Shown in pieces: positions 3,176 through 52,204 of a stretch of DNA of 64,000 bases. Position 1 is the first letter of the stretch. Every line of letters starts with the position of its first letter. Both the position numbers and the translations under genes were made by a program. The notes under the pieces were generated by a model, which saw nothing but the letters and a program-made list of their open reading frames with translations, did no database searches and was not told where the DNA came from. Source of the stretch: a virus; IMG/VR virus record IMGVR_UViG_3300035670_000049, positions 1 through 64,000 of that record; one strand, given 5' to 3'.

Positions 3176-3194
3176 ATCACATACCTCAAAAATA

Positions 3195-3272
3195 TGGTCG
3201 GGGCGAGAGGATTCGAACCTCCGGCCTACTGCTCCCAAAGCAGTCGCGCTGACCAAACTGCGCCACGCCCCG
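3195..3272 (-). tRNA. tRNA-Pro(TGG)
   Basis: Acceptor CGGGGCG/CGCCCCG, discriminator A, encoded CCA. Anticodon stem ACTGC/GCAGT, loop TTTGGGA. It overlaps any TTG-initiated reading of the HNH gene downstream. Confidence 0.94.
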
Positions 3273-3273
3273 A

Positions 3274-3834: not shown

Positions 3835-4045
3835 CTACAAATCCCTTAACCTTTCGAAAAGGCACTATTTGAACCTGATACCGTAAAGAACAGACACACC
3901 CTCTTGCATCCCTATCCGGGGATAATCCAAAATGATTTAGAATAAATTCACTTGCATATGCATTAAATGTTGAAATCTTAAGTCTGCAACCACATTCTGG
4001 GCAATAAGGCCATACGTGCTGTCCGTCCCGCATAAATTCTGCCAT
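3827..4045 (-). CDS. Cys-containing small protein (72 aa)
   Basis: Has CPECGC near residue 15 and a second pair (CVC) near residue 51, a likely zinc site. The ribosome site AGGAGG precedes the start. It overlaps the methyltransferase gene by eight bases, so the two are probably coupled. No function known. Confidence 0.72.
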   Translation of the reverse strand: MAEFMRDGQHVWPYCPECGCRLKISTFNAYASEFILNHFGLSPDRDARGCVCSLRYQVQIVPFRKVKGFVGA

Positions 4046-4071
4046 TTTAATTTCCTCCTTTATTTTAAGAT

Positions 4072-4146
4072 TGGTGCCCCCGGTAGGAATCGAACCTACA
4101 TTTTCGGGTTAGAACTCCGAGACTTTATCCATTAAGTTACGGGGGC
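4072..4146 (-). tRNA. tRNA-Arg(TCT)
   Basis: Acceptor GCCCCCG/CGGGGGC, discriminator A, encoded CCA. Anticodon loop GTTCTAA. Its 5' base directly follows the CCA of the next tRNA, with no spacer. Confidence 0.94.
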
Positions 4147-4224
4147 TGGTAGCATCGAAGAGATTCGAACTCTTACTGTTGTGATCCTAAGTCACACGCC
4201 TCCTGCCAATTGGGCTACGATGCC
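4147..4224 (-). tRNA. tRNA-Leu(TAG), short variable loop
   Basis: Acceptor GGCATCG/CGATGCT, discriminator A, encoded CCA. Anticodon stem TGTGA/TCACA, loop CTTAGGA. The variable loop is only ACAGT (5 nt), whereas bacterial leucine tRNAs normally carry a long variable arm. The anticodon reads CUA, so leucine is the expected amino acid, but the identity is less certain than for its neighbours. Confidence 0.85.
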
Positions 4225-4227
4225 ATA

Positions 4228-4596
4228 TTAACTATTTCCACCTAACTTTATTTTGCTAAAATCAGCACTGTCATCTATCGTTACTAAGATAGCCTCAAGA
4301 GCCTGTTGAACAGTCATTCCAGCAACAACAGGATCAGACGTGATACCATACTTACTATCAAGCCTGTTGTTGACCACGTTTGCTGTTGTGGCATTTATGG
4401 TATCTGTAAGTGGCTTATTAAGTGTTGTCAAGCGATCATCTAACAGAACACCAGAAACAATGCAGTTTTCAAACTTTACGAAAAAGATTCCATCCTTTTC
4501 GACAGCGACATAATCACAGCCATAATCTGCAACTACAGGTCTATATGGTTGATCTATTGTACCTGAGCCTATTATCTCACTTATCGCATACTCCAT
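4228..4596 (-). CDS. Probable virion-associated protein (122 aa)
   Basis: Starts MEYAISEIIGSGTID after an AAGGTGG site; a longer frame would run into the preceding tRNA and is rejected. The protein is acidic with predicted beta structure in the first half (DYVAVEKDGIFFVKF) and helical turns later. It precedes the structural genes on the same strand. No family recognised. Confidence 0.7.
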   Translation of the reverse strand: MEYAISEIIGSGTIDQPYRPVVADYGCDYVAVEKDGIFFVKFENCIVSGVLLDDRLTTLNKPLTDTINATTANVVNNRLDSKYGITSDPVVAGMTVQQALEAILVTIDDSADFSKIKLGGNS

Positions 4597-8091: not shown

Positions 8092-11000
8092 TTAGATCAC
8101 CACCCCTCTCCATCCATCATTGCTTATATCGGCAACAGGATGAACGTGTTGTGGTGTATAAATCTGTGCCTGTGCCTGTGACTGTACGGTATTTGTCGTA
8201 AAGATGTATGCTTCTGCTTGTGCATAAACAACATAGGTTGTCTTTATTAAAGCCCCCGCCTGTGCGTAGGCTTCGATATCCGTTGTCTTTATGTATGCTT
8301 CTGCCTGAGCAAATTGTGAGTAGGTCTGCTTGATAAGGGCTTGCGCCTGAGCGTATGCCTCATTATCAGTTACCTTGATATATGCCTGTGCTTGTGCCCA
8401 GTTATAATAGGTTGCCTTTATTGCAGCCATGCTCTGAGCATAGGCTTCAATATCCCTTACGATAACGTAAGCATTTGCTTGCGCATATCCCTGATAAGTT
8501 TGAAGGGTTAGGGCCTGTGCTTGGGCATAACCATTCAATCCAGAAAGAAGAATGAATGCTTGTGCATTCGCATATCCCTGATAGGTGTTCTCGATCCAAA
8601 CAGATGTTTGTGCAAATCCGTTGTAAGTTGCTTCAATATTCGCAGCAGCCTGAGCATAAGCCTGATAGGTATTCTCAATCCATGCCTGAGCCTGAGCGAA
8701 TTGATTTATAGTAGTTTCAATCCATGCTTGGCTCTGGGCAAATTGTGCTGATGTAGCGGCTATCGTTGCCTGAGCCTGAGCAGACCAAACAACCTGACCA
8801 CTAATATAGGCACCAGATTGTGCGAATGTGTAGGTTGTTGCTTTAACAGTTGATTGCGCTTGTGCATGAACACGAGTCGTGGCAATCTTCGCTTGAGCCT
8901 GAGCATAGGCTTGATATGTCTGGATAATCTTTGCTTCTGCTTGCGAATATGCCTGATATGTTTGCTCGATCCATGCACCAGACTGAGCCCAAACATTATA
9001 GGTCTGTTCAATAGCAGCCTGTGCTTGTGCGTATGCTTGGTACGTTGCTTTAACGTGAGCCTGTGCTTGGGACACAACATAATATGTTTGCTTGATCTGT
9101 GCTTGCGCCTGAGCAAATACAGAGTATGCATTCTCTATCCAAGTCTGCGCTTGCGCATAGCCTTGATAAGTCGTTTTAATCAAAGCACCTGACTGTGCAA
9201 ACTGATTAACAGTTGCCTCAATCCAAGCACCAGTCTGTGCGAAACTGTTGTAAGTCTGCTTGATATCAGACTGTGCTTGTGCGAATAGATTGTACGTCTG
9301 CTCAATCCATGCTTCAGCCTGAGCATATTGCAGATACATTCCTTGAACTAATGCTGCGCCTTGTGCATATGCATCATACGTTGTTTTGATCTGCGCTTGC
9401 GCTTGTGCGAACACATATCGAGTTACAAGACTGATAACGATTTCAGCCTGAGCCTGTGCATATACTTGGTATGTCTGCTTAATCGTAGACTGCGCATTCG
9501 CATAGGCTTGATAGGTATTTTCGATCCATGTTTGTGCTTGCGCATAAACACTATTCAGTGTCTTGATATTTGCTTGCGCTTGGCTATATGCTTGATAGGT
9601 TTGTTTGATATCTGCTTGTGATTGCGCCCACACCTGATACGTTGTTTTTATTTGTGCCTGTGCCTGTGCAAATACTTCAATTTCTGTTGACTTGATGTAT
9701 GCATTTGCTTGTGACCATACCAGATAGGTCTGCTCGACCCACGCCGCTCCCTGAGCGTGTACACGGGTCGTAGCGATCTTCGCCTGAGCCTGAGCCCATA
9801 CCTGATAGGCTTGCTTGATCTGAGCATTAGCCTGTGCCCAATTATTTGTCGTTACCTCAATCCAAGCATTTCCTTGCGCCCATGCTTGATATGTCTGCTT
9901 AATTCGTGCCTGAGCCTGAGCGAAACCTTCGACCTCTGGCATCTTGATATACGCATTTGCCTGAGCCCAACTATTGTATGTTTGCTCAATCCAAGTTGCT
10001 GCCTGAGCATGAACACGGGTTGTAGAAATCTTTGCCCCTGCTTGTGCAAATACCTGATACGTTTTCTTGATACGTGCTTGGCTCTGTGCATATTGAGTAT
10101 AGGTAGCCCGAATAGTTGCCTGTGCTTGCGCGTAGGCTTCGATATCAGTGACTTTGATATAAGCATTTGCTTGTGCAAATACATAGTACGTTTGCTTGAT
10201 ATCGGCTTGTGCTTGTGCCCATTGTCGTGGGATACCGATGATCTGTGCATTAGCCTGTGCAGATACCTTATAAGCAGCGGCTCCTGCCGGTGGACGCTGT
10301 AGATAGGCTTGAGATACAATAAATTTAGCACCACTATCTGGATAGAAGCGTATTCTAAGATCACTATAGTCTGTAATAGCGTTCATTTCAGACTGAGAGA
10401 GTGCTAATTTTACAGTTTCCCAGCTTGAATTTGATATAGATGTATTAGTTATAAAATTAATACCTTGATATAACCTCGGACTAATGGAACCGCTTGCTCC
10501 AAAACGACAAGCAGTTACAACTAGGAAGTGATCTTTTTTCCAAGCAGGAGTTCCAAGGTCTTCAAGTTTTACTTCGACATAGTTAGTCGTACCATCGCTG
10601 ACAATGTAATCTGTGTTATCGAGAATGGCTTCATCGATAGCGCTATATAGATCAGTTGTTACTCCTATGAGAGCAAGAGATTGAGCAAAGGAATTTCTTT
10701 CTGTTGCCCCGGAAATTAGTTCAGCCTGTGCCTGAGCATAACTTTGATAGGTTGCCTTAATCTGTGCCTGTGCTTGCGCGTATGATCTATATGTAGTCTT
10801 GATTGAAGTTTGTGATTGACCATAGCCTTGATAAATCGCTTCAATCCAAGTCTGTGCCTGTGCATAAACTTGATACGCTTGTTTAATAGTAGTTTGTGCT
10901 TGCGCAAATACCACATATGTTGCTTTAATTGTTGACTGTGCTTGAGCGTATGCTTGATATGTCTTTATAATAGATGCTTGAGTTTGTGAGTAGACAAGGG

Positions 11001-14000
11001 AAGTTTTTGCAATAGAGGCTTGTGCTTGTGCAAACGTCGGTCCAATGACTGTTCCGCCAGATGCTGGACGTAATGCTCCAACAACACCAGACCACGCAAG
11101 AGACTGGGCTATTGTACCAGTAATTGTATCAGTAGTACCAGCAGTTGCTTTAATCCCATCTGCTGCCAGTGTATCCTTAATTGCAGAAGATTCAAATACC
11201 TCTGCAAACTCTGTAACAGGCTCATCAGCATCTATAGCAAGACGGGCTGCTGTTGAAGAGTTACAAGCAACACCAACAATTACCATTGCATTATCGGTAA
11301 CTGTGGAAATACCTGTTAAGGTAAATGTTAGAGCCGCAGCACCATCAGTACCAACAGCCGTAACATCAAGCGGATTTGTTGTATCAACTCCACTATATCT
11401 AGCTAAAACGTAGCCAGTATATAATGAGTTACTTGTAGTATAAGTGAAATTTCCCGACCAAGTACTAGTGGCTTTTCTACCGTAAAGATATGTATCTGGG
11501 TTGGTTTGTCCTACAGCCGATCCAATAAGTGTCCAACCATCTGAGGCAAGAGAGACAGTACCCGGACCACCGTTAAATCCAATAGTTAGTACTAGATAAT
11601 CATCTATAGATATTCCTGTAGGATATGTAACCGTATGTGTATATGGTCCTGCCCCTGTTGGAACCCCGCCTCCTGTAGAAAAGGTTTCTCGTACAATTGC
11701 TAAACCTCTTGGGTAGGTTTGTTTAATCTGTGATTGTACCTGTGAAAAGACACTATACACTTGTTTGATTTGTGTCTGAGCCTGAGCGAAGACTCTAGTT
11801 GTAGTAGCACCCCCACCACCGTATAATAGAGGTACAGCGACGAGGGAACGCTCTCGCACCGAATATGTACCCGGCGGAGATACAACAGAAGCATCAAGAT
11901 TAATTGTTCTTGCTGCCCCCGAAGTTAGGGAAACTTTGTTAAAAAATAGTACAGGTTGTAGATCATTAACATCCCAGTTAGACATACCGGGAGCATCATC
12001 GCCATAAGCAGGATCAGATGCCAGCCCACCACCAGATGGGTTGATCTGTAGTCTTGTTTTGAGTAATCTTGTGGAAGTTACTGTAACAAATGCTGTGGTT
12101 AGATATCCAAGAACAAGCCAATCCCCAGTTGTGGATGGGGTTGGGGAAACCGTTGCAACGGTCGTCCATGATGGATCGGTTGCAGGAGTAACATCTCCTG
12201 CTGTTCTCTCATACGCTACTGTACTAAACTTAGATAAATTTAGTGCAAATATGCTTGAGTTGAAAACAGTACCAGCAGTTGTTCCTGTATGTGCAGCATC
12301 TATGGTTACTGTGTGAGATGCATTAGACGGTACATATACTGCCGCCATTACTAGCGGACGGATATCATTAACAATATCCCCACCATCTTCGGTGGTTTCT
12401 ACCAGAGCATTTGCTACAGAATCATTAATTCGTAACTTGACGCTGGAGGTTCCGTCTGTAACTGGGGATAACCGTGTTGCATGGCCTAATATCAGCCAAG
12501 GATCAGTACCATCTGGAGTAAACGTCACAGAGGCTTGGCTAGCATAAGATGCTGTTGTAGTGTAATCTGCTGTAACACTATTGGTATAGTAGTCTGTATT
12601 CTCAGTTAACTCATCAGTAAGCCTGATGGCTACGATCCACGCATCTCCCGCTGTAGTTTGGGAAGCACTTGAATTTCGTACCTGTACTACATAGCGTTCT
12701 GCTGTTCCACCCTGTGTGTGGGTAAACATGAAACCGAATGGGGTTTTAGATGTTGTAAGAATAGATTCGTCAATAGACCCTGTACCATCTGTAAAGATTG
12801 TTGGTGTAGTACCATATCCTACCCGTACTTCAGCCTGAGAAGAAGCAGAGTCATTTTCTATGAAGCCCCCAACAAGAATTAGATATGTCTTATTGGCGAC
12901 CATATTTGTCGATGCAATCTCTGCGGCATCTGTCCATGTCGTACCTAGAACACTGAATCCAAGACCCTCAGAATAGTAGATACTTGCTGGAGTTGTGGAA
13001 CTACTAGAAATCTGCGCTTGGCTTTGGGCAAAAGATTTTCCAACACCAATAATCTGTGCTTGGGCTTGACCTGTTTGTTCAAAATATGCCTGAGATAATT
13101 GAAAATCATCTACTGTAGTAGTTTGTCCAGCATAGGCATTAAAAGCAGTTGCCACATGGCCGATTGGATATGAAACAAAGGAAGACTCATTAGTTATAGT
13201 TACATACGTAGCGGGCTCTGGATCGCCGTCTTTCCAAATCCTAACATAACCTGTTTGATATGTTCCATTATCCGCATGTTTCATCCAGCCTCTAAGCCAT
13301 ATCCAAGTTCCTGCTTGGTAATTTAATATTTCTGCAACACCGCCATTTGCCCCGCCCCATGTAGTATTGACCATTACAACACCGAGGATATTTCCATCGG
13401 CTACTTGGAATGTTCCTCCAAAACCATTACCAGCAGATAGAGAAGTTACAGAGGCATCCGTTCCATCTCGTACTATTACATAACTGTCAGCAGATGTACT
13501 CTCAAACTTAAACTTGAATTTAACCATCCAAAAATCGGGTGCCACAAGTTTTCCAAGGGATGCTCTAGGAGCAGTACCTGAGTTAGTGACGACTAACTGG
13601 GAGCCATCTACATCAAAGTAAGTAGGCTGATCTATAACAGTCCAAGCACCAGCGTTGTCACTTGTACCTAGCCCGTCTGTAACACTTCTTGTAAATGTAT
13701 CGTAAACAGATGAATAAACAGGAGTAGGAAGAATTTTTGCAGTTGCTTGCGCAAATACTCTATTTGTAGTAGAAATAGTTGCTTGGGCTTGTGCAAGACT
13801 ATTTACAACAGGAGCAGTATAATCTACTGTAATTGAAACGTAATCTATACGTGCTGTTTCTGAGGTAGCACTATTTGCTCTATCATATAAAAAGTGAGCA
13901 AATACTGTTTGATCCCGCAGATTCTGGAGCGTCGGCGTCGTCGTCGCGGTGCATTCGATCAGCACGTCGGTCGTACTGCTCGTATCAACCGGCGTGCCAA

Positions 14001-17000
14001 CGTCGGTTCCAGACGGATTTTCTATGGTAATCTGGATAATTGATCCAATACTCTGATTAAGACCAACTTCTGCACTAACTTTGACAGAATTAATAGTAGA
14101 ACCGTCAGGAATATCAGAAGTAGCGTAAGATGGGAATCCATATCTTATTTCAGCAGTACCATTTCGACTCGACAGCGTGATTGAAGCGTACTGATCATCA
14201 CTCGTAGTGCTATAGGCATTTGTTTGGCTAGACCATGTATCAACAACATCTGTGTAGGAGTTAGCAGCCTTAGTTAAAATAGCCATCTTATATCACCACC
14301 CTTACCCAGTTATTTGTGGTGATATCAAGGACTGGTCGCTGATATACCGGAATATATACCAAGGCTAATGCTTGGGCACTGGCATACGTTGTTACAACCG
14401 CTGCTAAGATGGTTGCTTGTGATTGCGCCAATAAATTAGATGTTATTCGTATGTGTGCTTGTGCTTGGCTATAATTTAGCGTTATAGCCTTTATCGCTGC
14501 TTGGGCTTGTGCAAATGTTGGACCTACTACACTACCAGTTGTGGCTAGAAAGTCATCAAAAATGGCTGCGCTAGAACTAATGGAACTACGGATAGAGTAC
14601 GTAGCCGTACCGACCCCGCCAGATTGAATCTGGTTGGCAGACGTATTATCGGTAGTTTCGATATCCCATGTACTAGGTTCTGGCTGATCAAGCGTCCATG
14701 CACGGATTTTAAAAGTAGTGGGCGAATAGCCTGAAACATTAACCCTATATCTAGCATTATATGATGCCGTGTACGCTGTATATGTAACACTGGCTACTAT
14801 AGAAGCGACACCGGCAGTTATCCTATACAATATAACCGCATTGTCAGAAACTGTTACTCTGTATGCATCAGCCCCGGAACCCTTGCGAAGAAGAATGCCA
14901 GAATATACTGAGCCATAAACAACTGAGCCATCTTCTTCATCATACGAGTCTTTATCAGAAGTCAGATAAACATCGCCATCACCAAATGAAACCCCTGATG
15001 CTTGAGCGGAAAGAAGTCTAGAACCACTTGGCAGTTGAACACCGTGTCTGCCAGTCCCATCGCCCACATATGTAAAAGTGTAGCCTCCAGTTCCGATTAA
15101 AGTAGTAACATCCCAAGTCCCCCCAATATCGAGGCTAGAGCCATCAATATTGGTAGCAGGAGAACCGGCATAGGACTCTTGGGCAACGACTGTACTGCCA
15201 CCAAATGGGTAAGTCTGTTTAATCCAGACAGATGCTTGTGCATACGCTCTACTTGTTGCTTTAATAGTAGCAGCAGATTGAGCAAATGCCGGATAGGTTG
15301 CCTTAACTCTTGTCTGCGCTTGTGCATAGGCTTGACTGGTCTTAGTGATTGCAGCATTAGCCTGTGAGTAGACTTGATACGTTTGCTTTATCCGTGCATT
15401 AGATTGCGCCCAAACTTGATAGGTTGTCTTGATCTGTGTTTGTGCTTGTGCGTGATTATAGACAGTGCCTTTAATCTGTGCCTGTGCTTGTGCAGATACT
15501 TTATAGTTAGCAACAGAAGAAACTATCTCTGCTTGTGCTTGCGCGAATGGAGAACCTACAACCTCTCCTGCATATTGTACTGCAAGAAGATCATCATGGT
15601 ACGCAGGACTAGTTATGGCTGTAAGTCCCCAATAACCAGAGACTCTTTGGTGGGTGGCGGTATTATCTGTTGTTTCAATAATAGGAACTTTACCGGAAAA
15701 ATCTGAAGTATCTGATCTAAAAACTCTTAGGCGTGTTGGAGATTGTCCTATAACTTCAAAGCATATGTAACTTCCTGATCCAGCAACAGTAGATGCTAGT
15801 ACAGAACCGTGTCTATATAATGATACAGTACTTCCACTTAATCTAACAGAGTAATCATAATTAGGACTAGGAACTATATTTAAACGTAGACCAATATACG
15901 GAGTTGTTCCTGATAAATGTGCTTGTATATAACCATTACCAATAGTATTTACATCAGCCAATGTAGCATAATATGTCCCAAAAGTTTCTATGCTATCTAT
16001 CCGATCTAAATCCCTATCTAATCTCCAGTCGCTGGTAGCAGTCCATGTACCACCTATCTCTGCGGTATGGGTGCTAAGATCAACTAGTCCTGTTCCTTCT
16101 TCTGTAAAGGAATCTTGTGCGATTGTAGAAGGATTTCCCCAAGGATTAAATGACGGATAGGTTTGCTTGATACTTGTCTGTGCTTGAGCCGAAGATGCTC
16201 CCTTATAAACAATTTTAGCCCGTGCTTGAGCATGTCTTAACCAATCGATAGCAATTCCATTTTTAAATTCCAGATCATCTAAAGTTACTAAGATAGGGAG
16301 ATTAGATACGCTACTACTAGCATACGCTCTTATCAGAACTGGCCCCGGAGTAACTGTATATGGAGTAGAAACAGTAGTTTCAGTTGTTGCTGCCGTAGAC
16401 CAAAGAGGTTCTTCTGTGCCAACTTTCCACAGTTTTCTTCTGTTTAAAGTATACATACTTGTAGGAGATGTTGGAGGACGAGTAATTGCCTGTATTCTAA
16501 AGTTCCAAGACTCTCCTGCTGCATATGGAATGGAATTTGTTCCGCTACTATTACCACTTCCTATTCTTGAGGCCACCATAGTAAAAGTACTGCTAGTACT
16601 AAAGGTAATCTGGGCTCCAAACGACTTGGTAGTAATAGAAGGATCTTTTGTAGAGTAACCGCCCATAACGTGTACGATTATGCTATCAGTAGCAGGTATT
16701 TTATCTAAGGAGATTATTCCTCTTACCTCGTACCCATGTTCATGAACAGATGTTTTAGGTACTATTATAAGTTGTTCTCCACTTGTTATTAAATTAATCG
16801 TTCCGCTTGTTCCATTTACATCAAAATTTGATAGCGTACCGGCTTCTAATGTATATACATCGCCACTGTCATTTGCGCCCCAACCATCGGTAACGGTTCT
16901 ATTGAAGTAATCTGTTAAGTGGAATCGCTCTCCAGCAATACATGCCGCAACCAGTGCTGACCTTTCCATCGGAGCCTTAAGATATGCTTCTGCTTGAGCA

Positions 17001-18870
17001 TAAGTGAGTTTAATCTTAGATTCGATTAAAGCAGTTGTTTGAGCAACCTGATTACCTACTGGATAGAAAGTAAAATCATCGATAGAGGCAGTAATACTTG
17101 TTGTTGTGCTACTATTAATATAGCAACCTACCCAGTTAAATATGCTCGCTTGACTTTCTGAAAGTGTTGCACCAGATGCTGCCCAATCAGGCTCTGCATC
17201 TCCATCTTTCCAAGCCTTTATTCTTATGCTTAATCCTGTTTTTCTTGCCTTTAAAATCCATGTATCTCCAGCAACATATGTGCCATAGTTAGTATTTGGT
17301 GTAGTAGAACCATATTTCCATACTCTAAGTGTTATAGTACCTGTAGAACTTACATCTATAGCTGGATGTATATAATTACTACTTCCTGTTTCTTGAGCAG
17401 TATTTTTATTTAAGAAAACTCCTACTGATATAGTAGATGAAGGAAGTACATCTAAACTAAATTTTAAAGATACTTCCCAATCTGGGTAGTATACAGAAGG
17501 ACCAGTTTGTTTTGTCATAAAAACTTTAGAGTTACTAGTACTGGGACCTACGTAACTTTGGTTCCCATTGACTCCAACTCCAGTATTACCATTTAAACTA
17601 AGCCAAGTATCTCCGTTTTCTGCTGTTCCCCATCCACTACCGGAAGAAACAGTTCTGGTAAACGTATCAAGTAGTGTTCCATAGACAGGAAGTATCTGGG
17701 CCATCGCAAGTGCATGAGCCCTTGTCGGAACAATCCATGCTGCTGCTTGCGCAAATTGTTGCTTTATATTGGAATCGATTAAAGCATTTGCTTGAGCGTA
17801 ATTATTAGTATTACTGATTATGATGTATGTTTGTGCTTGTGCTGGACTCTGTATCCCATTTAAGATAAGAGCATTAGCCTGAGCATACGCTTGCATTGCT
17901 GCCTTAATCGTACCTTGAGACTGAGCATAAGATTGAATAATTATTTTTATTCTTGCTTGTGCTTGTGCTACTTGGAAATAGGTTTGTTTAACTAAACCTT
18001 GTACCATAGAATGTACAAAGGAACTTGCTTTAACTGAGGATGAAGCCTGAGCGTAGGACTGCATGGGTGCAAAAATAGTTGCTTGGGCTTGCGCAACGGG
18101 CTCTGCTGTCCATCTAGTAACTTTGAAGTTATCAATTTTTACAACAGTGTTAGTAGAAATTCCGGCACCAAGAACACGAAGGATTGTATGTCCGGGTGGT
18201 GAATCTGTTGTAGGAATAGGAGTATGAATAGCACTATAAGAATATACCGTTTCTGGTGCTGCTTTGTTCCATGTGCGAGAATCGGCTTGTACTTTTCCTG
18301 TACTTGTATTCCAAAAAACATAAGCGTCATAAACCCAAACATCGCCTAAATTACCGTAAGTTGCTCCAGAACTCCAAGTATTAGCGGCACTTCCATATCC
18401 AGCAGCAAATTGAATTGTTTTATTTGATTGTATAATAATTCCAGCAGTTTTTGCACCATATACTGTTGTATCAAGAGTAGACCTACCGCCGTCATAAACA
18501 AATATATTAATTCCAACATCAGAAAGTTCGGTAAGCAATCCATATTCAAACGATACTCTCCACTTAGCCGGTGCAACCATATTTGTTAAATGTATAAACA
18601 TTTCATCTTGGTTAATTAAATCTACTCTTGCTTCTCCAGACGTTACTGACCAGCCAGCAGCAGAAGATGAAACCTTCCAATCCCCAGCATTATCAGATGT
18701 TCCTAAGCCGGGAGATACAGTACGAGTGAATGTATCAAATACTTCAGAATATTGTGGAGTAGTAAAAATTAATGCCATTGCCAGTGCATAAGCCCTAGCA
18801 GTAACTTTAATTTGTGTTTGTGCTTGAGCGTAGGAAGGAACAATACCTTTTATCTGTGCTTGAGATTGAG
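5450..18870 (-). repeat. Hundreds of bases of degenerate 42-bp coding repeats
   Basis: Within the three giant genes a 42-base unit coding for about 14 residues, core AQAQAxIKxTY, recurs many dozens of times. The longest runs are in 5455-7600, 8150-10260 and 10690-11040. Units differ at DNA level, more than at protein level, which implies selection on the protein while the DNA diverges. Runs are interrupted by non-repetitive beta-rich domains. Confidence 0.9.
8092..14286 (-). CDS. Giant repeat fibre-like protein B (2064 aa)
   Basis: Same N-terminal beta domain as protein A (1-160). Around 195-400 a ConA/LamG-like domain starts YDTFTRSVTDGLGTSDN. Further beta-rich domains occupy about 430-1060 and 1190-1330. 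The [YF]AQAxAxIKxTY repeats fill 1070-1180 and 1330-2045. The C-terminus HPVADISNDGWRGVVI resembles the end of protein C, so C-termini of B and C are related while A differs. Long fibres with ConA-like heads usually bind surface glycans. A GC-rich patch lies near 13925-13995. Confidence 0.85.
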   Translation of the reverse strand: MAILTKAANSYTDVVDTWSSQTNAYSTTSDDQYASITLSSRNGTAEIRYGFPSYATSDIPDGSTINSVKVSAEVGLNQSIGSIIQITIENPSGTDVGTPVDTSSTTDVLIECTATTTPTLQNLRDQTVFAHFLYDRANSATSETARIDYVSITVDYTAPVVNSLAQAQATISTTNRVFAQATAKILPTPVYSSVYDTFTRSVTDGLGTSDNAGAWTVIDQPTYFDVDGSQLVVTNSGTAPRASLGKLVAPDFWMVKFKFKFESTSADSYVIVRDGTDASVTSLSAGNGFGGTFQVADGNILGVVMVNTTWGGANGGVAEILNYQAGTWIWLRGWMKHADNGTYQTGYVRIWKDGDPEPATYVTITNESSFVSYPIGHVATAFNAYAGQTTTVDDFQLSQAYFEQTGQAQAQIIGVGKSFAQSQAQISSSSTTPASIYYSEGLGFSVLGTTWTDAAEIASTNMVANKTYLILVGGFIENDSASSQAEVRVGYGTTPTIFTDGTGSIDESILTTSKTPFGFMFTHTQGGTAERYVVQVRNSSASQTTAGDAWIVAIRLTDELTENTDYYTNSVTADYTTTASYASQASVTFTPDGTDPWLILGHATRLSPVTDGTSSVKLRINDSVANALVETTEDGGDIVNDIRPLVMAAVYVPSNASHTVTIDAAHTGTTAGTVFNSSIFALNLSKFSTVAYERTAGDVTPATDPSWTTVATVSPTPSTTGDWLVLGYLTTAFVTVTSTRLLKTRLQINPSGGGLASDPAYGDDAPGMSNWDVNDLQPVLFFNKVSLTSGAARTINLDASVVSPPGTYSVRERSLVAVPLLYGGGGATTTRVFAQAQTQIKQVYSVFSQVQSQIKQTYPRGLAIVRETFSTGGGVPTGAGPYTHTVTYPTGISIDDYLVLTIGFNGGPGTVSLASDGWTLIGSAVGQTNPDTYLYGRKATSTWSGNFTYTTSNSLYTGYVLARYSGVDTTNPLDVTAVGTDGAAALTFTLTGISTVTDNAMVIVGVACNSSTAARLAIDADEPVTEFAEVFESSAIKDTLAADGIKATAGTTDTITGTIAQSLAWSGVVGALRPASGGTVIGPTFAQAQASIAKTSLVYSQTQASIIKTYQAYAQAQSTIKATYVVFAQAQTTIKQAYQVYAQAQTWIEAIYQGYGQSQTSIKTTYRSYAQAQAQIKATYQSYAQAQAELISGATERNSFAQSLALIGVTTDLYSAIDEAILDNTDYIVSDGTTNYVEVKLEDLGTPAWKKDHFLVVTACRFGASGSISPRLYQGINFITNTSISNSSWETVKLALSQSEMNAITDYSDLRIRFYPDSGAKFIVSQAYLQRPPAGAAAYKVSAQANAQIIGIPRQWAQAQADIKQTYYVFAQANAYIKVTDIEAYAQAQATIRATYTQYAQSQARIKKTYQVFAQAGAKISTTRVHAQAATWIEQTYNSWAQANAYIKMPEVEGFAQAQARIKQTYQAWAQGNAWIEVTTNNWAQANAQIKQAYQVWAQAQAKIATTRVHAQGAAWVEQTYLVWSQANAYIKSTEIEVFAQAQAQIKTTYQVWAQSQADIKQTYQAYSQAQANIKTLNSVYAQAQTWIENTYQAYANAQSTIKQTYQVYAQAQAEIVISLVTRYVFAQAQAQIKTTYDAYAQGAALVQGMYLQYAQAEAWIEQTYNLFAQAQSDIKQTYNSFAQTGAWIEATVNQFAQSGALIKTTYQGYAQAQTWIENAYSVFAQAQAQIKQTYYVVSQAQAHVKATYQAYAQAQAAIEQTYNVWAQSGAWIEQTYQAYSQAEAKIIQTYQAYAQAQAKIATTRVHAQAQSTVKATTYTFAQSGAYISGQVVWSAQAQATIAATSAQFAQSQAWIETTINQFAQAQAWIENTYQAYAQAAANIEATYNGFAQTSVWIENTYQGYANAQAFILLSGLNGYAQAQALTLQTYQGYAQANAYVIVRDIEAYAQSMAAIKATYYNWAQAQAYIKVTDNEAYAQAQALIKQTYSQFAQAEAYIKTTDIEAYAQAGALIKTTYVVYAQAEAYIFTTNTVQSQAQAQIYTPQHVHPVADISNDGWRGVVI

Positions 18871-19345
18871 AATAACTTCGATAGGTTGTAACAGGAGCAT
18901 CAGGCACGGATAGATAAACTTCATAAACGCGGATAGTTTCTATTCCACCAATCGTAGTCTGAGCCATTCTAACACGAAGATCACTATAGTTTGTGATGGA
19001 ATCTGCTTCAGTTGATGTAAGCGTATATGTATAATCAGTAGCGGTTGTACGGCTAATCGTTTCTGCGGCAGAAGTTGCTCTTAATGTTGCACCTTCATAT
19101 AAATAGAACGTTAATTTTTCTCCTGCTGCCGAACCATCTTGTACTATTGCACGTACAGTTAATACGTGATTCGTATTAGATGCTGGATCAGTAACACTTC
19201 CTAATTGTAACTCACACGCAAGCGTTGATCCAAGCGGACCATTTATATAGGTTGAATCAGACGAATCATTTACTTTTGAATATAAAGGGCTTGTCCACCA
19301 TGTATTAATTGTAACGTCGCTGATAGGTCTAGCAAACTGTGCCAT
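14288..19345 (-). CDS. Giant repeat fibre-like protein C (1685 aa)
   Basis: Has a distinct N-terminal beta domain (1-150, starting MAQFARPISDVTINTWW) and about five ConA-like domains. Their openings are recognisable as (D)TFTRTVS..GLGTSDN, LDTFTRTVSSGSGWG, DYFNRTVTDGWGAND, QDSFTEEGTG and QESYAGSPAT, near residues 205, 565, 830, 1090 and 1395. AQAQAxIK repeats link them. The end is PVLDITTNNWVRVVI. The strong AAAAGGTGGTGAG ribosome site supports this start. It is probably a virion fibre with several carbohydrate-binding modules. Confidence 0.85.
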   Translation of the reverse strand: MAQFARPISDVTINTWWTSPLYSKVNDSSDSTYINGPLGSTLACELQLGSVTDPASNTNHVLTVRAIVQDGSAAGEKLTFYLYEGATLRATSAAETISRTTATDYTYTLTSTEADSITNYSDLRVRMAQTTIGGIETIRVYEVYLSVPDAPVTTYRSYSQSQAQIKGIVPSYAQAQTQIKVTARAYALAMALIFTTPQYSEVFDTFTRTVSPGLGTSDNAGDWKVSSSAAGWSVTSGEARVDLINQDEMFIHLTNMVAPAKWRVSFEYGLLTELSDVGINIFVYDGGRSTLDTTVYGAKTAGIIIQSNKTIQFAAGYGSAANTWSSGATYGNLGDVWVYDAYVFWNTSTGKVQADSRTWNKAAPETVYSYSAIHTPIPTTDSPPGHTILRVLGAGISTNTVVKIDNFKVTRWTAEPVAQAQATIFAPMQSYAQASSSVKASSFVHSMVQGLVKQTYFQVAQAQARIKIIIQSYAQSQGTIKAAMQAYAQANALILNGIQSPAQAQTYIIISNTNNYAQANALIDSNIKQQFAQAAAWIVPTRAHALAMAQILPVYGTLLDTFTRTVSSGSGWGTAENGDTWLSLNGNTGVGVNGNQSYVGPSTSNSKVFMTKQTGPSVYYPDWEVSLKFSLDVLPSSTISVGVFLNKNTAQETGSSNYIHPAIDVSSTGTITLRVWKYGSTTPNTNYGTYVAGDTWILKARKTGLSIRIKAWKDGDAEPDWAASGATLSESQASIFNWVGCYINSSTTTSITASIDDFTFYPVGNQVAQTTALIESKIKLTYAQAEAYLKAPMERSALVAACIAGERFHLTDYFNRTVTDGWGANDSGDVYTLEAGTLSNFDVNGTSGTINLITSGEQLIIVPKTSVHEHGYEVRGIISLDKIPATDSIIVHVMGGYSTKDPSITTKSFGAQITFSTSSTFTMVASRIGSGNSSGTNSIPYAAGESWNFRIQAITRPPTSPTSMYTLNRRKLWKVGTEEPLWSTAATTETTVSTPYTVTPGPVLIRAYASSSVSNLPILVTLDDLEFKNGIAIDWLRHAQARAKIVYKGASSAQAQTSIKQTYPSFNPWGNPSTIAQDSFTEEGTGLVDLSTHTAEIGGTWTATSDWRLDRDLDRIDSIETFGTYYATLADVNTIGNGYIQAHLSGTTPYIGLRLNIVPSPNYDYSVRLSGSTVSLYRHGSVLASTVAGSGSYICFEVIGQSPTRLRVFRSDTSDFSGKVPIIETTDNTATHQRVSGYWGLTAITSPAYHDDLLAVQYAGEVVGSPFAQAQAEIVSSVANYKVSAQAQAQIKGTVYNHAQAQTQIKTTYQVWAQSNARIKQTYQVYSQANAAITKTSQAYAQAQTRVKATYPAFAQSAATIKATSRAYAQASVWIKQTYPFGGSTVVAQESYAGSPATNIDGSSLDIGGTWDVTTLIGTGGYTFTYVGDGTGRHGVQLPSGSRLLSAQASGVSFGDGDVYLTSDKDSYDEEDGSVVYGSVYSGILLRKGSGADAYRVTVSDNAVILYRITAGVASIVASVTYTAYTASYNARYRVNVSGYSPTTFKIRAWTLDQPEPSTWDIETTDNTSANQIQSGGVGTATYSIRSSISSSAAIFDDFLATTGSVVGPTFAQAQAAIKAITLNYSQAQAHIRITSNLLAQSQATILAAVVTTYASAQALALVYIPVYQRPVLDITTNNWVRVVI

Positions 19346-34699: not shown

Positions 34700-36574
34700 T
34701 TATATAACTTGTATTGATGGAATTGGGCCTTCGTCCCTCATCCACTTCACTCCTGCTTCATAGTCTATCTTGGGCTTGTATTCCTCTGGAATTTCACAAA
34801 CTCCATCAACACAGTCCATCATATTCTGCTCAGTAATTGAGGCCAATGCCTGATGAATGTCACGATTATGTACCAGTTGCTTGGCTTCTGCTAGAGGGAT
34901 TGCCTCTAGGGGCTCTTCTCCCCGTGAGCCAGCCCGGTAGAACGTCGTTCCCTTGACGTATGGTAGATATTCTAGCCATAGGTCTGATAGAGATTCAACC
35001 GAGTAGGATTGCGCGAGATTTATGGTTTTACTTGTCGCATTATCAATATGTAGTTGACATACCCTTTGCATCTCAAAGTGAGCCTCGGGACTTACATCGT
35101 ATGCTCCTTCAAGCACATCAACGTTCCCATCTTTTTCGACTAGTTCGTTCCAATGCGGATTGATAACTAATTCCTTGTCAAGTTGTCTTGAGCCATCAAG
35201 TGTAGGACGATAGAATCTTCGCCAATACGCGGGAGCAAAGATGGGCTCAATACCTGTAGAGACATTAGCAACCATGCCTGTTGTTCCTGTTGGGGCAATT
35301 GTCAGAATTGCACAGTTTCGAATACCCTTCTCTTGAATCTGGCGCTGTAGTTCTTCCGGTATCGCTCTTTGAACAAACCCGGACATTAGAAACTCTTCTT
35401 GAAAAGCAGGGAATGGTCCCTTCTCTTCAGCCAGATCAATAGATGCCTGATATGCCTCAAGTTTTATAAAATGCATCAACTGATCAACGAAGTTTCTCGC
35501 AGACTCTGAAGAATACTTATATCCCAACTTAATGAGCATGTCATGTAGACCCATGACTCCCAGACCAATACGCCGCACAGTATTGCAGTTATCTCGTATC
35601 TCTGGAAGAGGGTACTCATTTACGGATAGAACATTATCCAAGAACCTAACCGCCGTCCTGATCGTGCTAGCAAGTTGAGCCCATTCAACATGCCCCAAGT
35701 CATTGACAAACCTAGGAAGAACCAGAGCCCCAAGATCGCAGCACCCATATTCTTCCAGCCATATCTCTCCGCATGGGTTAGTCGATACCAGCGGCTTGTG
35801 ATACCATATGTTAGATTCTCGATTAGCCAGATCACCATTTAAAACTCCCGGTTCTCCGCTAGACCAAGCATTACTAACAATTGTTTCCCATAATTCCTTC
35901 GCATTCTGCTTACCGTGTTGCGTTCCTGAGTAAGTCAGATCAAACTCTTCTCCATTTCTCACCTTGTTTATGAAGGAATCTGTATTTAGCCTTTTATCAA
36001 TAATAACAGAAACATTTGCGTTATTAAGTTTGGACTTGTTAAGCTTTGCATTGATAAATTCCGGCATGTCCGGGTGTGTGATATTTAGATCAAGCATCAG
36101 TGCCAATCTTCTGCCACCACCCGACACAAGAACGTCACCAACAGCATTGATCATATCCATTAATGAAACAGCGCCTGTAGCCACACCCCCAGTGCCATTA
36201 ATACGACTTCCGCGAGGGCGAATAGGACTACAATTGACACCAACACCCCCGCCCATTCCAGAAATAACAATAACGTCGTGAATGGTCTTCCCCCACCCCT
36301 CTCGACTATCATGCGTAGGGACAACAAAACAATTAAGTAACTGAGCCCTAGGGCGACCACTTCCATACCAAATCCTTCCACCGGGCATGAACCTGTTTGT
36401 TACAATTTCTTCATAAAACTCGGCTGCTGTCGGTTCTCTCTTTCCATTCATTTCTGCTGATGCCACATGCTGCGCCAATCTCATGCTGGCATCACCCCAA
36501 TCCTCACTTGGATGAATTGTGTACCTTTCCTTAAATATTGTCTCCGCTAATCCTAACGGTTGATAAATGCTCAA
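34700..36574 (-). CDS. nrdJ: Class II (B12-dependent) ribonucleotide reductase
   Basis: Makes deoxyribonucleotides using adenosylcobalamin. Core motifs: GRIWYGSGRPRAQLLNCF, GGGVGVNCSPIRP near 115, NPCGEIWLEEYGCCDLGAL near 270 and GVMGLHDMLIKLG near 345. The fold spacing matches monomeric class II enzymes rather than class I NrdA, since there is no NrdB partner in the window. 624 residues. Class II needs no oxygen and relies on vitamin B12, common in Actinobacteria and their phages. Overlaps the HNH gene by four bases. Confidence 0.95.
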   Translation of the reverse strand: MSIYQPLGLAETIFKERYTIHPSEDWGDASMRLAQHVASAEMNGKREPTAAEFYEEIVTNRFMPGGRIWYGSGRPRAQLLNCFVVPTHDSREGWGKTIHDVIVISGMGGGVGVNCSPIRPRGSRINGTGGVATGAVSLMDMINAVGDVLVSGGGRRLALMLDLNITHPDMPEFINAKLNKSKLNNANVSVIIDKRLNTDSFINKVRNGEEFDLTYSGTQHGKQNAKELWETIVSNAWSSGEPGVLNGDLANRESNIWYHKPLVSTNPCGEIWLEEYGCCDLGALVLPRFVNDLGHVEWAQLASTIRTAVRFLDNVLSVNEYPLPEIRDNCNTVRRIGLGVMGLHDMLIKLGYKYSSESARNFVDQLMHFIKLEAYQASIDLAEEKGPFPAFQEEFLMSGFVQRAIPEELQRQIQEKGIRNCAILTIAPTGTTGMVANVSTGIEPIFAPAYWRRFYRPTLDGSRQLDKELVINPHWNELVEKDGNVDVLEGAYDVSPEAHFEMQRVCQLHIDNATSKTINLAQSYSVESLSDLWLEYLPYVKGTTFYRAGSRGEEPLEAIPLAEAKQLVHNRDIHQALASITEQNMMDCVDGVCEIPEEYKPKIDYEAGVKWMRDEGPIPSIQVI

Positions 36575-37029
36575 TTTGTATCGCTCCTTTTATCTCCTTC
36601 TCCAACTTTTCCAATATATCCCCAAAATCTTGAACATTTGTACACATCACCGGATTCTTGGTAACTGCAAATGTATGGAAGATATACTTTGTGCTTTCTA
36701 GCAATAGGGGCTCTCACTTCCTTCCAACAGGGCTTCTGAAACTTACAAGGCATGAACGTCTTTGATGCGCCCTTCCTTGGCTCTACATGCTCATCCCCCA
36801 AATTAACAATTCGGTATCCGTGACTCGCAGAAATAACTTCAAGGTTTGAGGGACGATTATCATTAGTATCGCCGTTCTTATGCCGTACAGACTCGTCAGG
36901 ATAGAGAAATCTGCCTAATTCTTCTTCTGCTATAAGTATCTGTTCAGGTACATATCCTTCGCCCACAACTGCGGGATGACCGGGTTTATATACAAGAACA
37001 TAGTAATCATAAATTCTGGGTTTCTTCAC
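36571..37029 (-). CDS. HNH endonuclease next to nrdJ
   Basis: N-terminal YYVLVYKPGHPAV, then PDESVRHKNGDTNDNRPSNLEVIS near residue 43-66, a typical HNH_3-like core with His and Asn in place, followed by cysteine pairs (CKFQKPC, C-CSRF). Such enzymes are often free-standing homing nucleases placed in or beside essential genes such as nrdJ. It overlaps nrdJ by four bases. Confidence 0.85.
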   Translation of the reverse strand: MKKPRIYDYYVLVYKPGHPAVVGEGYVPEQILIAEEELGRFLYPDESVRHKNGDTNDNRPSNLEVISASHGYRIVNLGDEHVEPRKGASKTFMPCKFQKPCWKEVRAPIARKHKVYLPYICSYQESGDVYKCSRFWGYIGKVGEGDKRSDTN

Positions 37030-49599: not shown

Positions 49600-50031
49600 T
49601 TACTCTTCTCCAATATTTGTTGCTGTCGGTATATAACCTTGCCAGTCTGGAAAGAATCCAAACTCGGGTAGACCGGGAAGATTGCCCCAATCCTGAATGG
49701 TATCAAACATATCAGATGGACTATCTCCCCAACTATCTCCACCTGTAATTAGTACATCATACTTACCGATATTAATCATATAACAATGACGATCATAGTT
49801 ACCATCAGCGACTGATCGAATATCATCGTGACAACAAAGCAAACGATGCTTCAATTCTTCAAGAGCCGAACAATCATCGTCATCACTATGAATCATTTGC
49901 ATATACTCAAACTCAGGATGATCTTTAAGTTGTTCCTCTGTTAGATTCTCAATGTATGCTCTTGCAGCATCCCAATCAGGACGCTTATCTTTAGCCCACC
50001 AAACAAAGTTTAGAAGTAGATCATTACCCAT
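49600..50031 (-). CDS. Hypothetical protein (143 aa)
   Basis: MGNDLLLNFVWWAKDKRPDW then EYIENL helices, HSDDDDCSALEELKHRLLCCHDD and TGGDSWGDSPSDMFDTIQDW. The last segment resembles a loop found in several phage proteins, but the family is not identified. Confidence 0.64.
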   Translation of the reverse strand: MGNDLLLNFVWWAKDKRPDWDAARAYIENLTEEQLKDHPEFEYMQMIHSDDDDCSALEELKHRLLCCHDDIRSVADGNYDRHCYMINIGKYDVLITGGDSWGDSPSDMFDTIQDWGNLPGLPEFGFFPDWQGYIPTATNIGEE

Positions 50032-50204
50032 TATGTTAGGACCCTCGCAACTACCTTATCATTACATAGAAGTCGCTTCTTATACCCATTACCTACATTT
50101 AGAGCATTGAAGTATAAAATAGCTTGGACTTTATTAGTAAATGACCATCGAGTTTTATATGCTGATTTATAACGTCCAATCTGAACTTTATATAAATCAT
50201 CCAT
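50031..50204 (-). CDS. Small basic protein (57 aa), neighbour of the inserted cassette
   Basis: Preferred start is the ATG at 50202-50204 (MDDLYKVQIGRYKSAYKT), because its ribosome site (TAGGTGAAG) lies inside the orphan native 3' end of the interrupted gene. This shows that the region originally connected to the gene now at 51555-51974. Lys/Arg-rich; may bind nucleic acid. Confidence 0.6.
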   Translation of the reverse strand: MDDLYKVQIGRYKSAYKTRWSFTNKVQAILYFNALNVGNGYKKRLLCNDKVVARVLT

Positions 50205-50250
50205 AAACAACTTCACCTAGCACAATCTTCTGAATGATTACATCTGCCAT
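50197..50250 (-). pseudogene. Native 3' end of the gene now ending at 51555
   Basis: Reads (ATG) then ADVIIQKIVLGEVVYG and TGA on the minus strand, the same 16 residues as the current C-terminus of 51555-51974, but 14 of the 16 codons differ (all synonymously) and the stop is TGA instead of TAG. It ends in the ATGGATGA overlap with the start of the next gene. Interpreted as the displaced original tail. Confidence 0.85.
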
Positions 50251-50321
50251 AGCCCATATCCTTTCTATATTGTAGATTATGATACCGGGGGATGGTCATA
50301 ATCTATTTAGGAGGTATTAAA

Positions 50322-51041
50322 ATGTTTAAATATTCAGGAAACAAACAAAGGTTATTGCATCTACTACGCCAACCACCTAAAGGTCCGATCATAGAGCCTT
50401 TTGCTGGAAGCGCAAGGTACAGTTTGAATTACGATTTAGATGCTATTTTATTTGAAAAAAACAAAGACGTATACGATTTATGGGACTGGTTAATAAACGA
50501 TGCTACTAAGAAAGATTTACTTGAATTAGAAAAAATGAAGCAACCGGAAAAGGTGGATATTCGATTGCTTAACCTTCCAAAACCGCAGGAAACTCTATTT
50601 AGGTTGACGTGCGCAAGCGTTTACGTAGGTCAGTTATCCTCATGGATTTCGTACCCTCAACATAAAGTAGATTTTTCTAGATTGATTAGTTATTTACCCC
50701 AAATAAAATATCGATTTACTTTAGGAGGCACAGATTACTTACAATCAGCAGGATTGCAAGGAACGTACTTTATTGATCCGCCTTATATGGGCACAAGTGG
50801 AAATTATATAGATGGAAGCAATAAAAAAGAATTAAATAGCGTAAACTTAAATACTTTTACAGAGTATATAAATAGTGTTGACTCTCCTATTATATTTACG
50901 TATGGCACGGATGCTCAGGAAGTTTTTCCGCAATATCAATGGGAATTAGTTTTGATGAGGCGCGTCCCTAAAATTAGAACCGGAGGTACTGCGAATAGGA
51001 TCGATTATGTCTTTTATAAGAATTTTTCTATACATGGTTAA
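50322..51041 (+). CDS. D12-class adenine-N6 DNA methyltransferase
   Basis: Dam-like fold: MFKYSGNKQRLLHLLRQPPKG, IIEPFAGSARYSLNYDL (SAM motif I, FAGS) and TYFIDPPYMGTSGNYIDG (catalytic DPPY motif IV) near residue 148. AGGAGG precedes the ATG at 50322; a start ten codons earlier is less likely. In the cassette it would protect the recognition site of the paired nuclease. Confidence 0.92.
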   Translation: MFKYSGNKQRLLHLLRQPPKGPIIEPFAGSARYSLNYDLDAILFEKNKDVYDLWDWLINDATKKDLLELEKMKQPEKVDIRLLNLPKPQETLFRLTCASVYVGQLSSWISYPQHKVDFSRLISYLPQIKYRFTLGGTDYLQSAGLQGTYFIDPPYMGTSGNYIDGSNKKELNSVNLNTFTEYINSVDSPIIFTYGTDAQEVFPQYQWELVLMRRVPKIRTGGTANRIDYVFYKNFSIHG

Positions 51042-51140
51042 ATCAGAAATTTCCTCAAAATCTTCGTCTGTTTCAATAATAAAGCAGCCGTCGATAGATG
51101 AAAATGTTTCTCCATCATTAAGAACAACGTATTGTTTCAT
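50946..51140 (-). CDS. Small acidic protein antisense to the methylase end (64 aa)
   Basis: MKQYVVLNDGETFSSIDGCF with VLNDGETF opening, a pattern of short phage proteins of unknown function. GAGGAG precedes the ATG. The C-terminal third is antisense to the methylase gene, so the original stop may have been lost to insertion, or the overlap is natural. Confidence 0.55.
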   Translation of the reverse strand: MKQYVVLNDGETFSSIDGCFIIETDEDFEEISDLTMYRKILIKDIIDPIRSTSGSNFRDAPHQN

Positions 51141-51161
51141 TTTACTCCTCGGAGGTAAATA

Positions 51162-51578
51162 ATGTCTAAAGAACGTCAACGCGAATGGTATTATGAGAAC
51201 CATGAAAGAGAGTTAGCCAAACGTAGAGCATATCAAGAGGCTAATCGAGAACGAGTACGCGAAATGAATAGAGATAATCATCGAAGGCACCAGCAAGAGG
51301 ACCCCGAAGGTTATAAACTTGTTAGGAGATTTCGTCAACTAAAGCATAAATATGGTATTACACAGCAACAATACGACGATATGTATAACTCTCAGCAAGG
51401 ATTGTGTGCAATATGTATACAGCCCTTTGATATTTTTGCCGTAGATCATAATCATATTACAGGTCGAATACGTGGATTACTGTGTAAATCATGTAATACC
51501 TTACTTGCTAATGCTAAAGAAGATTCATCGCTACTGCAAAGAGCAATTGACTATCTAGCCGTACACGACCTCACCTAG
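51162..51578 (+). CDS. HNH endonuclease, recombination endonuclease VII-like
   Basis: Basic N-terminus (SKERQREWYYENHERELAKR), then YGITQQQYDDMYNSQQ, CAIC and FAVDHNHITGRIRGLLCKSCN near residue 88-113, the His-Asn-His endonuclease VII layout. A GGAGG site precedes ATG. Its last 24 bases are antisense to the recoded tail of 51555-51974, so both genes share DNA. Likely homing nuclease whose site lies in that tail. Confidence 0.9.
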   Translation: MSKERQREWYYENHERELAKRRAYQEANRERVREMNRDNHRRHQQEDPEGYKLVRRFRQLKHKYGITQQQYDDMYNSQQGLCAICIQPFDIFAVDHNHITGRIRGLLCKSCNTLLANAKEDSSLLQRAIDYLAVHDLT

Positions 51579-51974
51579 AACTATTTTTTGGATTATAACG
51601 TCCGCTCCGATGGCATCGTAATCAATATCTTCTCTGATACCCTTGTTGTTGACAGTATATGAGAATAGATGGCCGTAGTTTTCTAGCGCCCAATCTGTAG
51701 CATCAACCAACTTCTGTAGCGTAATTGAAGTAAATGGCCGCTTCTCTTCTTCTGCTTGACCATCCTCATCATCACGCATCCAAATTAGAGGAGTATCAAG
51801 AGTTAGATCAGGATTGATTTTATCGGTATCGGGCTCTCCATCCTCATCACATACATACCACCAATACCACTTGTATCTTTCAATTTGCGCCCAAAATCCT
51901 CTAGCACTCCAATCCATACCATCACTGAGAATATTCAGCAATAGAGGTACGGGATAACGTCCAGCAATTTGCAT
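51555..51974 (-). CDS. Hypothetical protein with recoded C-terminus (139 aa)
   Basis: MQIAGRYPVPLLLNILSDGMDW, aromatic and acidic body, C-terminus ADVIIQKIVLGEVVYG. The last 16 residues use codons unlike the native copy at 50197-50250 (for example GCG/GCA, ATA/ATT, GTG/GTT), yet the protein is unchanged. It lies at the insertion boundary of the methylase/nuclease cassette. Function unknown, but its protein was clearly worth preserving. Confidence 0.8.
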   Translation of the reverse strand: MQIAGRYPVPLLLNILSDGMDWSARGFWAQIERYKWYWWYVCDEDGEPDTDKINPDLTLDTPLIWMRDDEDGQAEEEKRPFTSITLQKLVDATDWALENYGHLFSYTVNNKGIREDIDYDAIGADVIIQKIVLGEVVYG

Positions 51975-52204
51975 TAGGTTAGTTCCTTTACAGTAAATGC
52001 TGTATCTACAGCAAACTCGTTGGCAAATCCATCAGTAATTTCCTGCCATGCTTCTGCGGGCATATGCCCAATAGCATTAGCAATAGCATCTACTTCTGTA
52101 ATGCGCCCCTTTCGATACATTGGAGCAAAGCCAATTCTAGTATGCAGATTAATTGTAATTGTTACGTCGTAGTCTTTCTCTTCAAAATAAGACTTCTTTG
52201 CCAT
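51974..52204 (-). CDS. Hypothetical protein (76 aa)
   Basis: MAKKSYFEEKDYDVTITINLH, beta N-terminus, then TEVDAIANAIGHMPAEAWQEI. Coupled by a one-base overlap to the target gene of the cassette. Function unknown. Confidence 0.6.
   Translation of the reverse strand: MAKKSYFEEKDYDVTITINLHTRIGFAPMYRKGRITEVDAIANAIGHMPAEAWQEITDGFANEFAVDTAFTVKELT

Follow-up and report, generated by a model that had tools for sequence, protein, structure and literature searches.

Background

Phages carry free-standing homing endonucleases, such as those of the seg and mob genes of T4 and the endonuclease VII-like genes of T7-like phages. Restriction enzymes and Holliday-junction resolvases belong to the endonuclease VII family as well. 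Gene drives engineered on the home-and-rescue or cleave-and-rescue principle (for example PMC7968924 and PMC7951863) are synthetic CRISPR constructs.

The WHO elements of Torulaspora and Lachancea (Coughlan et al. 2020, PMC7282813) consist of an endonuclease gene located downstream of a full-length FBA1 gene, the 3' end of which has been replaced by a resistant allele, the displaced 3' fragment residing on the far side. Some of the endonuclease genes are oppositely oriented. The enzyme is an HO/intein-like nuclease, the system is eukaryotic and meiotic, and the FBA1 alleles are 85% identical in their 3' part, over hundreds of bases (PMC7282813). Mobile endonuclease ORFs of fungal mitochondria have been described in the atp6, atp9, cox2 and nad3 genes of Glomus and in atp6 of Allomyces; an inserted C-terminal end restores the gene, and the native end lies downstream (PMC3630166). 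The inserted ends show 64-81% identity in DNA and 94-100% in protein, and measure 51 nt in atp9, where the native end measures 52 nt. The mitochondrial case has been read as horizontal transfer of the end, not as resistance (PMC3630166).

Duplicated or recoded gene ends were not found by keyword in one T4 review and one phage-wide survey. No phage report of a gene-end-replacing architecture was found in the literature searched, which is weak evidence, subscription papers lying outside it.

Results

Two ends of one gene

The window, the whole stretch of 64,000 bases analyzed here, corresponds to positions 1-64000 of a metagenomic virus record of 120,336 bases. The features of the locus are collected in Table 1. 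The target gene matches phrog_2355 (E=9.7e-7), the match reaching the last position of the family, and its C-terminal end is ADVIIQKIVLGEVVYG. According to the initial annotation the same 16 residues are encoded twice on the minus strand, at 51558-51605 and 50200-50247, with 14 of the 16 sense codons changed, every change synonymous, and TAG versus TGA as stops; a codon-by-codon reading of the DNA gave exactly this. The recoded tail is GCG GAC GTT ATA ATC CAA AAA ATA GTT CTA GGT GAG GTC GTG TAC GGC TAG, the native tail GCA GAT GTA ATC ATT CAG AAG ATT GTG CTA GGT GAA GTT GTT TAT GGA TGA. Both translate to ADVIIQKIVLGEVVYG followed by the stop, and are identical at 35/51 DNA positions. When peptide repeats encoded on one strand by diverged DNA were searched for across the 64-kb window, nothing comparable was returned except one repetitive gene region, and the duplicated tail is therefore not due to chance.

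Table 1. Features of the locus, in window coordinates. L002 and L003 are phage contigs carrying cassette-free relatives of the target gene.
Feature	Position	Strand	Remarks
Target gene, full length with restored 3' end	51555..51974	-	139 aa, PHROG 2355-like
Recoded (restored) tail	51555..51605	-	16 codons + TAG
Probable upstream extension of divergent patch (TAC GAT GCC ATC GGA)	51606..51620	-	codons compared with L003
Antisense overlap, nuclease 3' end / recoded tail	51555..51578	.	24 nt, codons in register
Endonuclease VII-like (beta-beta-alpha metal) nuclease	51162..51578	+	138 aa; PF02945
D12-class adenine methyltransferase, cargo or partner	50322..51041	+	239 aa; PF02086, E=6.2e-6
Inverted repeat, TAGATTATGA / TCATAATCTA	50273..50305	.	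perfect, 10 bp; upstream of methylase; operator-like
Inserted unit, deduced from empty site	50248..51605	.	1358 bp; comparison with L003 and L002
Displaced native tail	50197..50247	-	16 codons + TGA; codons match L003 empty site
Possible mini-ORF MADVIIQKIVLGEVVYG	50197..50250	-	ATG 50248-50250 abuts native tail in frame
Downstream gene	50031..50204	-	57 aa; ATG inside native tail; homologue in L003

Cassette-free relatives

Two relatives of the target gene, 68-69% identical to it, were found in IMG/VR, on phage contigs of 115 and 120 kb (L002 and L003). Alignment and degenerate-DNA scans of IMG/VR detected none beyond these two; none was found in 50,697 annotated phage records, and none in a genome-contig scan. 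In both relatives the site is empty and the gene intact. The L003 gene ends GCA GAT GTA ATC ATT CAG AAG ATT GTG CTT GGT GAA GTA ACG TATGGATAA, and is directly followed, at 6563-6733, by a homologue of the 50031-50204 gene, which starts inside its end; the overlap of the native tail with the start of this gene, pointed out in the initial annotation, is thus the same in the uninterrupted gene.

The native tail shares 13 of 15 comparable codons with L003, the recoded tail one of 15 (P=2e-5). The gene core has 44 of 71 codons identical to L003, again against 1/15 in the recoded tail (P=9e-5). By this comparison the end now borne by the intact gene is foreign, and the original one has been displaced to the other side of the cassette. 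Recoded codons were looked for in cassette-free relatives, and both L002 and L003 were found to carry native-type codons. Their uninterrupted genes support the proposal that the cassette landed in the gene, that the protein end was kept and that the far copy is native, and they define a unit of about 1.36 kb inside the 3' end of the gene. The codon break relative to L003 already sets in some five codons upstream of the duplicated part: one of four comparable codons is shared at 51606..51620, 17 of 22 in the 27 codons preceding it upstream.

The stop of the possible mini-ORF overlaps the start of the next gene, and AAAGGA is found 8 nt upstream of its ATG. With an in-frame ATG and AAAGGA directly before the native tail, which holds the start of the next gene, these 17 codons could preserve translational coupling to that gene.

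Genes of the inserted unit

The unit, made up of the recoded tail, the endonuclease VII-like gene and the D12 methylase gene, resides in the 3' end of the target gene and has a G+C content of 36% (42.5% in the window). The two domains, which had been assigned from the sequence to plus-strand genes between the tails, were matched by PF02086 and PF02945. An Rfam search of 49900-52200 gave no RNA or intron match. The reading of the unit as a group I intron or an intein was discarded, a splicing element being absent (Rfam, same interval) and the nuclease being antisense to the gene.

The nuclease matches PF02945 with E=1.2e-22 and 80.1 bits, the curated cut-off being 23.6, and Endonuclease_7 is the only Pfam domain over cut-off in the protein. 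The DHNH residues (D95, H96, N97, H98) and the zinc-binding CxxC pairs (C82/C85/C108/C111) are invariant in a 12-member alignment. The nearest solved structures are T4 endonuclease VII and Hpy99I, the latter being the best PDB match. The last seven codons and the stop of the nuclease (LAVHDLT-TAG) pair in antisense, codon for codon, with LGEVVYG-stop of the target gene, and the two unchanged tail codons, CTA GGT, exactly face ACC TAG of the nuclease. In the tail part lying outside the overlap, 9/9 codons are changed.

The methylase is recognized by PADLOC as MTase_II (E=6e-17), and features intact EPFAG and DPPY motifs. Its gene is adjacent to, and co-directional with, that of the nuclease. 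None of three viral methylase relatives is paired with such a nuclease in the DNA analyzed, and no methylase relative was found at the other nuclease loci; the methylase may be cargo or a safeguard.

An antisense ORF (51039-51140, minus strand) is located between the two genes. It begins MKQYVVLNDGETFSSIDGCFIIETDEDFEEISDL (MKQYVVLNDGETFSSIDGC..), is preceded by GAGGAG, and then runs into the antisense strand of the methylase. It resembles the beginning, 34 codons long, of a small phage gene, and may be left over from a locus that formerly hosted the cassette; relatives sought in the phage collection and in L002 and L003 were not detectable.

Codons of the recoded tail

When the 16 residues were redrawn from the codon usage of the phage, 8.9 differences were obtained on average, and at least 14 with P=0.004; the corresponding P is 0.019 with the codon usage of the cassette, and 0.048 with uniform usage. 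The codon-usage likelihood of the recoded tail falls in the lowest 0.04% for the phage, and in the lowest 0.5% for the cassette. Such unusual codons lean towards selection, or towards an unusual donor.

Restored ends were compared at eight loci, the window included (the other loci are described below). Codons differ at 75 of 113 identical residues (66%), one of L188 and L189 being taken and the weak locus L121 left out, and the 14/16 of the window is at the high end. As 66% is close to the level expected when an old, divergent allele has reached synonymous saturation, selection and drift are both kept as options, and the recoding may come from a divergent donor. In the yeast WHO precedent, resistance derives from allelic divergence, not from purposeful recoding (PMC7282813).

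Gene ends duplicated at other endonuclease VII loci

Endonuclease VII loci were collected from IMG/VR, the window being excluded, and same-strand peptides encoded left and right of the nuclease were compared within flanks of 350 nt, at a threshold of at least 26 bits and with mismatched flanks as controls. A first broad survey of ungapped peptides had been swamped by low-complexity repeats; stop-anchored, seeded and flank-limited versions then took its place. A gene end is duplicated across the nuclease at seven of 215 distinct viral loci (about six elements), and at none of 860 mismatched controls; the resulting 3% is not an unbiased frequency, because two later scans were queried with the nucleases of early finds.

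All seven duplications involve gene ends. One element is of the 3' type. In this locus (L102) the gene ends ISAPTGLTVVIQ-stop and is followed by the nuclease, the C-terminus of which is fused to the displaced ISPPTGLTVVVQ-stop. Running on in frame into the displaced native tail, the L102 nuclease frame (3896-4447) encodes a foreign C-terminal extension. The other five elements are mirror images at 5' ends, in the order truncated 5' fragment, nuclease, full gene with its own start region. They reside in a small Cys-rich gene (L048), the large terminase gene (L189 and L204, with L188), and genes named from their sequence as QueE-like (L114), nicotinamide phosphoribosyltransferase (NAMPT)-like (L228) and cytosine methylase-like (L146). 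The truncated fragment is taken as native from its position, direct evidence being provided by the terminase pair only. In L146 nuclease and native fragment share a reading frame: no stop interrupts the nuclease frame (2764-3315) on its way upstream through the native 5' part of the methylase gene. Judging from this arrangement, the nuclease may be expressed from the start of the target gene itself. In L102 and L048 the restored end differs also in amino acids. Nuclease ORF and restored end share 4-24 nt at each of the six loci whose coordinates were measured, as they do in the window; at L102 the shared stretch is the GTGA junction. Such overlaps would tie the rescue to the nuclease.

The terminase loci provide the strongest evidence of movement. 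The upstream flanks of L188 and L189 are unrelated. Over the nuclease cassette and the ~65 bases that begin the restored terminase, 4/645 positions differ (99.4% identity), as against 62 of 1114 nt in the terminase sequence that follows (94% identity; P=6e-9 for the contrast). Cassette and restored end being far more alike than the adjoining terminase, the transferred unit is the nuclease plus the restored gene end, and this co-transfer matches what the homing model predicts. The terminase search returned only relatives less than 60% identical, too distant for the codon test.

No clear end duplication was found at 27 loci of annotated or cultured phages. In Klebsiella phage VIPKPNMC04 (L288) the endonuclease VII gene overlaps the start of the DNA polymerase gene, and a 13-nt polymerase stretch recurs upstream of the nuclease; this repeat of the polymerase 5' region (~1149 and ~1688) was judged too weak. 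Neither the window's two remaining HNH genes nor the endonuclease VII genes of the L002 phage showed an end duplication. One HNH_3 nuclease gene of the window (36571-37029, minus strand) abuts, and slightly overlaps, the start of the gene for the ribonucleotide reductase large subunit (34700-36574), a typical homing position; no end duplication was seen there. Three large adjacent genes on the minus strand of the window (5257-19345; 944, 2064 and 1685 aa) are rich in degenerate AQAQAxIKxTYxxxAQ repeats. Three different endonuclease VII-like genes lie in a row on one viral contig of 4.3 kb (L004, 1-4264).

Discussion

Taken together, the sequence data indicate that the window cassette is probably a free-standing homing element of the gene-end-replacing type. 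In a gene free of the cassette, the nuclease would be expected to recognize and cut the junction near the final codons, at the conserved ..IGADVIIQKIVLGEV.. end. Repair from a phage that bears the cassette would then copy in the nuclease, the methylase and the synonymous gene end. After homing, the upstream part of the gene would be joined to the tail of the cassette, and the same protein encoded. The recoded tail, 69% identical to the native one in DNA, should escape recognition, and the tail of the recipient would be pushed to the far side as half a target, still holding the start of the gene that follows. For the window, we infer that the native tail is cut, that the recoded one is immune and that the element spreads through repair. 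The general homing idea is supported by the seven further loci, and by the terminase pair, in which nuclease and restored end were transferred together. The exact window cassette was found at one locus only, and its own mobility is deduced from the empty site and from its cousins. The breadth of the nuclease family, which extends to resolvases and restriction enzymes, and the lack of a clear case at the 27 annotated or cultured loci speak against this reading.

A broader reading is put forward tentatively, as one which may well be wrong: that these loci represent an unnamed phage class of homing elements which replace 3' or 5' gene ends, the diverged end overlapping the nuclease, and that in the window the recoding was selected to escape both nuclease and recombination, to which the methylase would add a second safeguard, the whole being a natural home-and-rescue drive. 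Alternatively, the restored tail could be the old 3' end of the gene of a distant relative, brought in together with the nuclease when ordinary recombination took place at a boundary flanked by it. The codon differences would then be due to drift, and resistance to cutting would be incidental or absent. The near-saturation of synonymous differences across the eight loci and the amino acid changes in L102 and L048 speak for such an origin, and nuclease genes are known at boundaries of exchange between phages (PMC10448857). Yet all 16 residues are identical in the window while 14 codons differ, the codons are unusual for phage and cassette alike, and plain recombination gives no reason for the repeated overlap of nuclease and restored end, nor for the displaced native end. 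Ordinary recombination is accordingly a serious but rather unlikely explanation.

The pairing of a methylase with a beta-beta-alpha-metal nuclease in adjacent, co-directional genes would suit a type II restriction-modification system of methylase and Hpy99I-like nuclease, inserted by chance, in which the methylase protects the phage genome. PADLOC assigns the two proteins to MTase_II (see above) and REase_II (1.8e-6), and Hpy99I leads the PDB matches. The nuclease, however, is much closer to the general endonuclease VII families of phages (1e-22 to 1e-32), a second such pair was seen neither with the three viral methylase relatives, in the DNA analyzed, nor at the other nuclease loci, and a recoded gene tail is left without a reason, all of which makes a restriction-modification system improbable. 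That the C-terminal 16 residues occur twice on one strand might also recall the relic of a tandem gene duplication, with methylase and nuclease inserted later between the copies; but just the last 17 codons are duplicated, the break coincides exactly with the cassette boundary, the relatives are single-copy and the intact gene carries foreign codons, so that this origin is hardly credible.

Replacement of the gene end would account for the harmless presence, inside important genes, of homing genes that do not rely on splicing. The native fragment would mark the site, and the targets of the nucleases would be predictable directly from sequence; matched pairs of DNAs, predicted to be cut and immune, are naturally available for tests of nuclease specificity.

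Free-standing homing endonucleases of phages resemble the window element in that an endonuclease VII or HNH gene lies beside or within a phage gene and the sites of relatives are empty. The likeness to WHO is in the architecture: a full-length gene with a divergent end beside the nuclease, and the native end displaced beyond it. The window element differs in residing in a phage, in its endonuclease VII-type enzyme, in the 16-codon, fully synonymous tail, in the methylase and in the antisense overlap, and phage loci elsewhere include mirror-image 5' versions. It does not belong to the WHO family by descent, as the nuclease is of the endonuclease VII type, not an HO/LAGLIDADG-type enzyme with a zinc finger. 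The mitochondrial ORFs share the gene-end-replacing architecture, but encode LAGLIDADG or GIY-YIG nucleases and lack a methylase. Replacement of gene ends, known in yeast and in fungal mitochondria, is here extended to phages and to several independent genes, the large terminase included. With engineered drives, in which a nuclease cassette sits in an essential gene together with a recoded copy restoring its function, the likeness is in logic only; comparable layouts at further phage genes suggest that the home-and-rescue drive has a natural version, a counterpart in nature of recoded-rescue designs.
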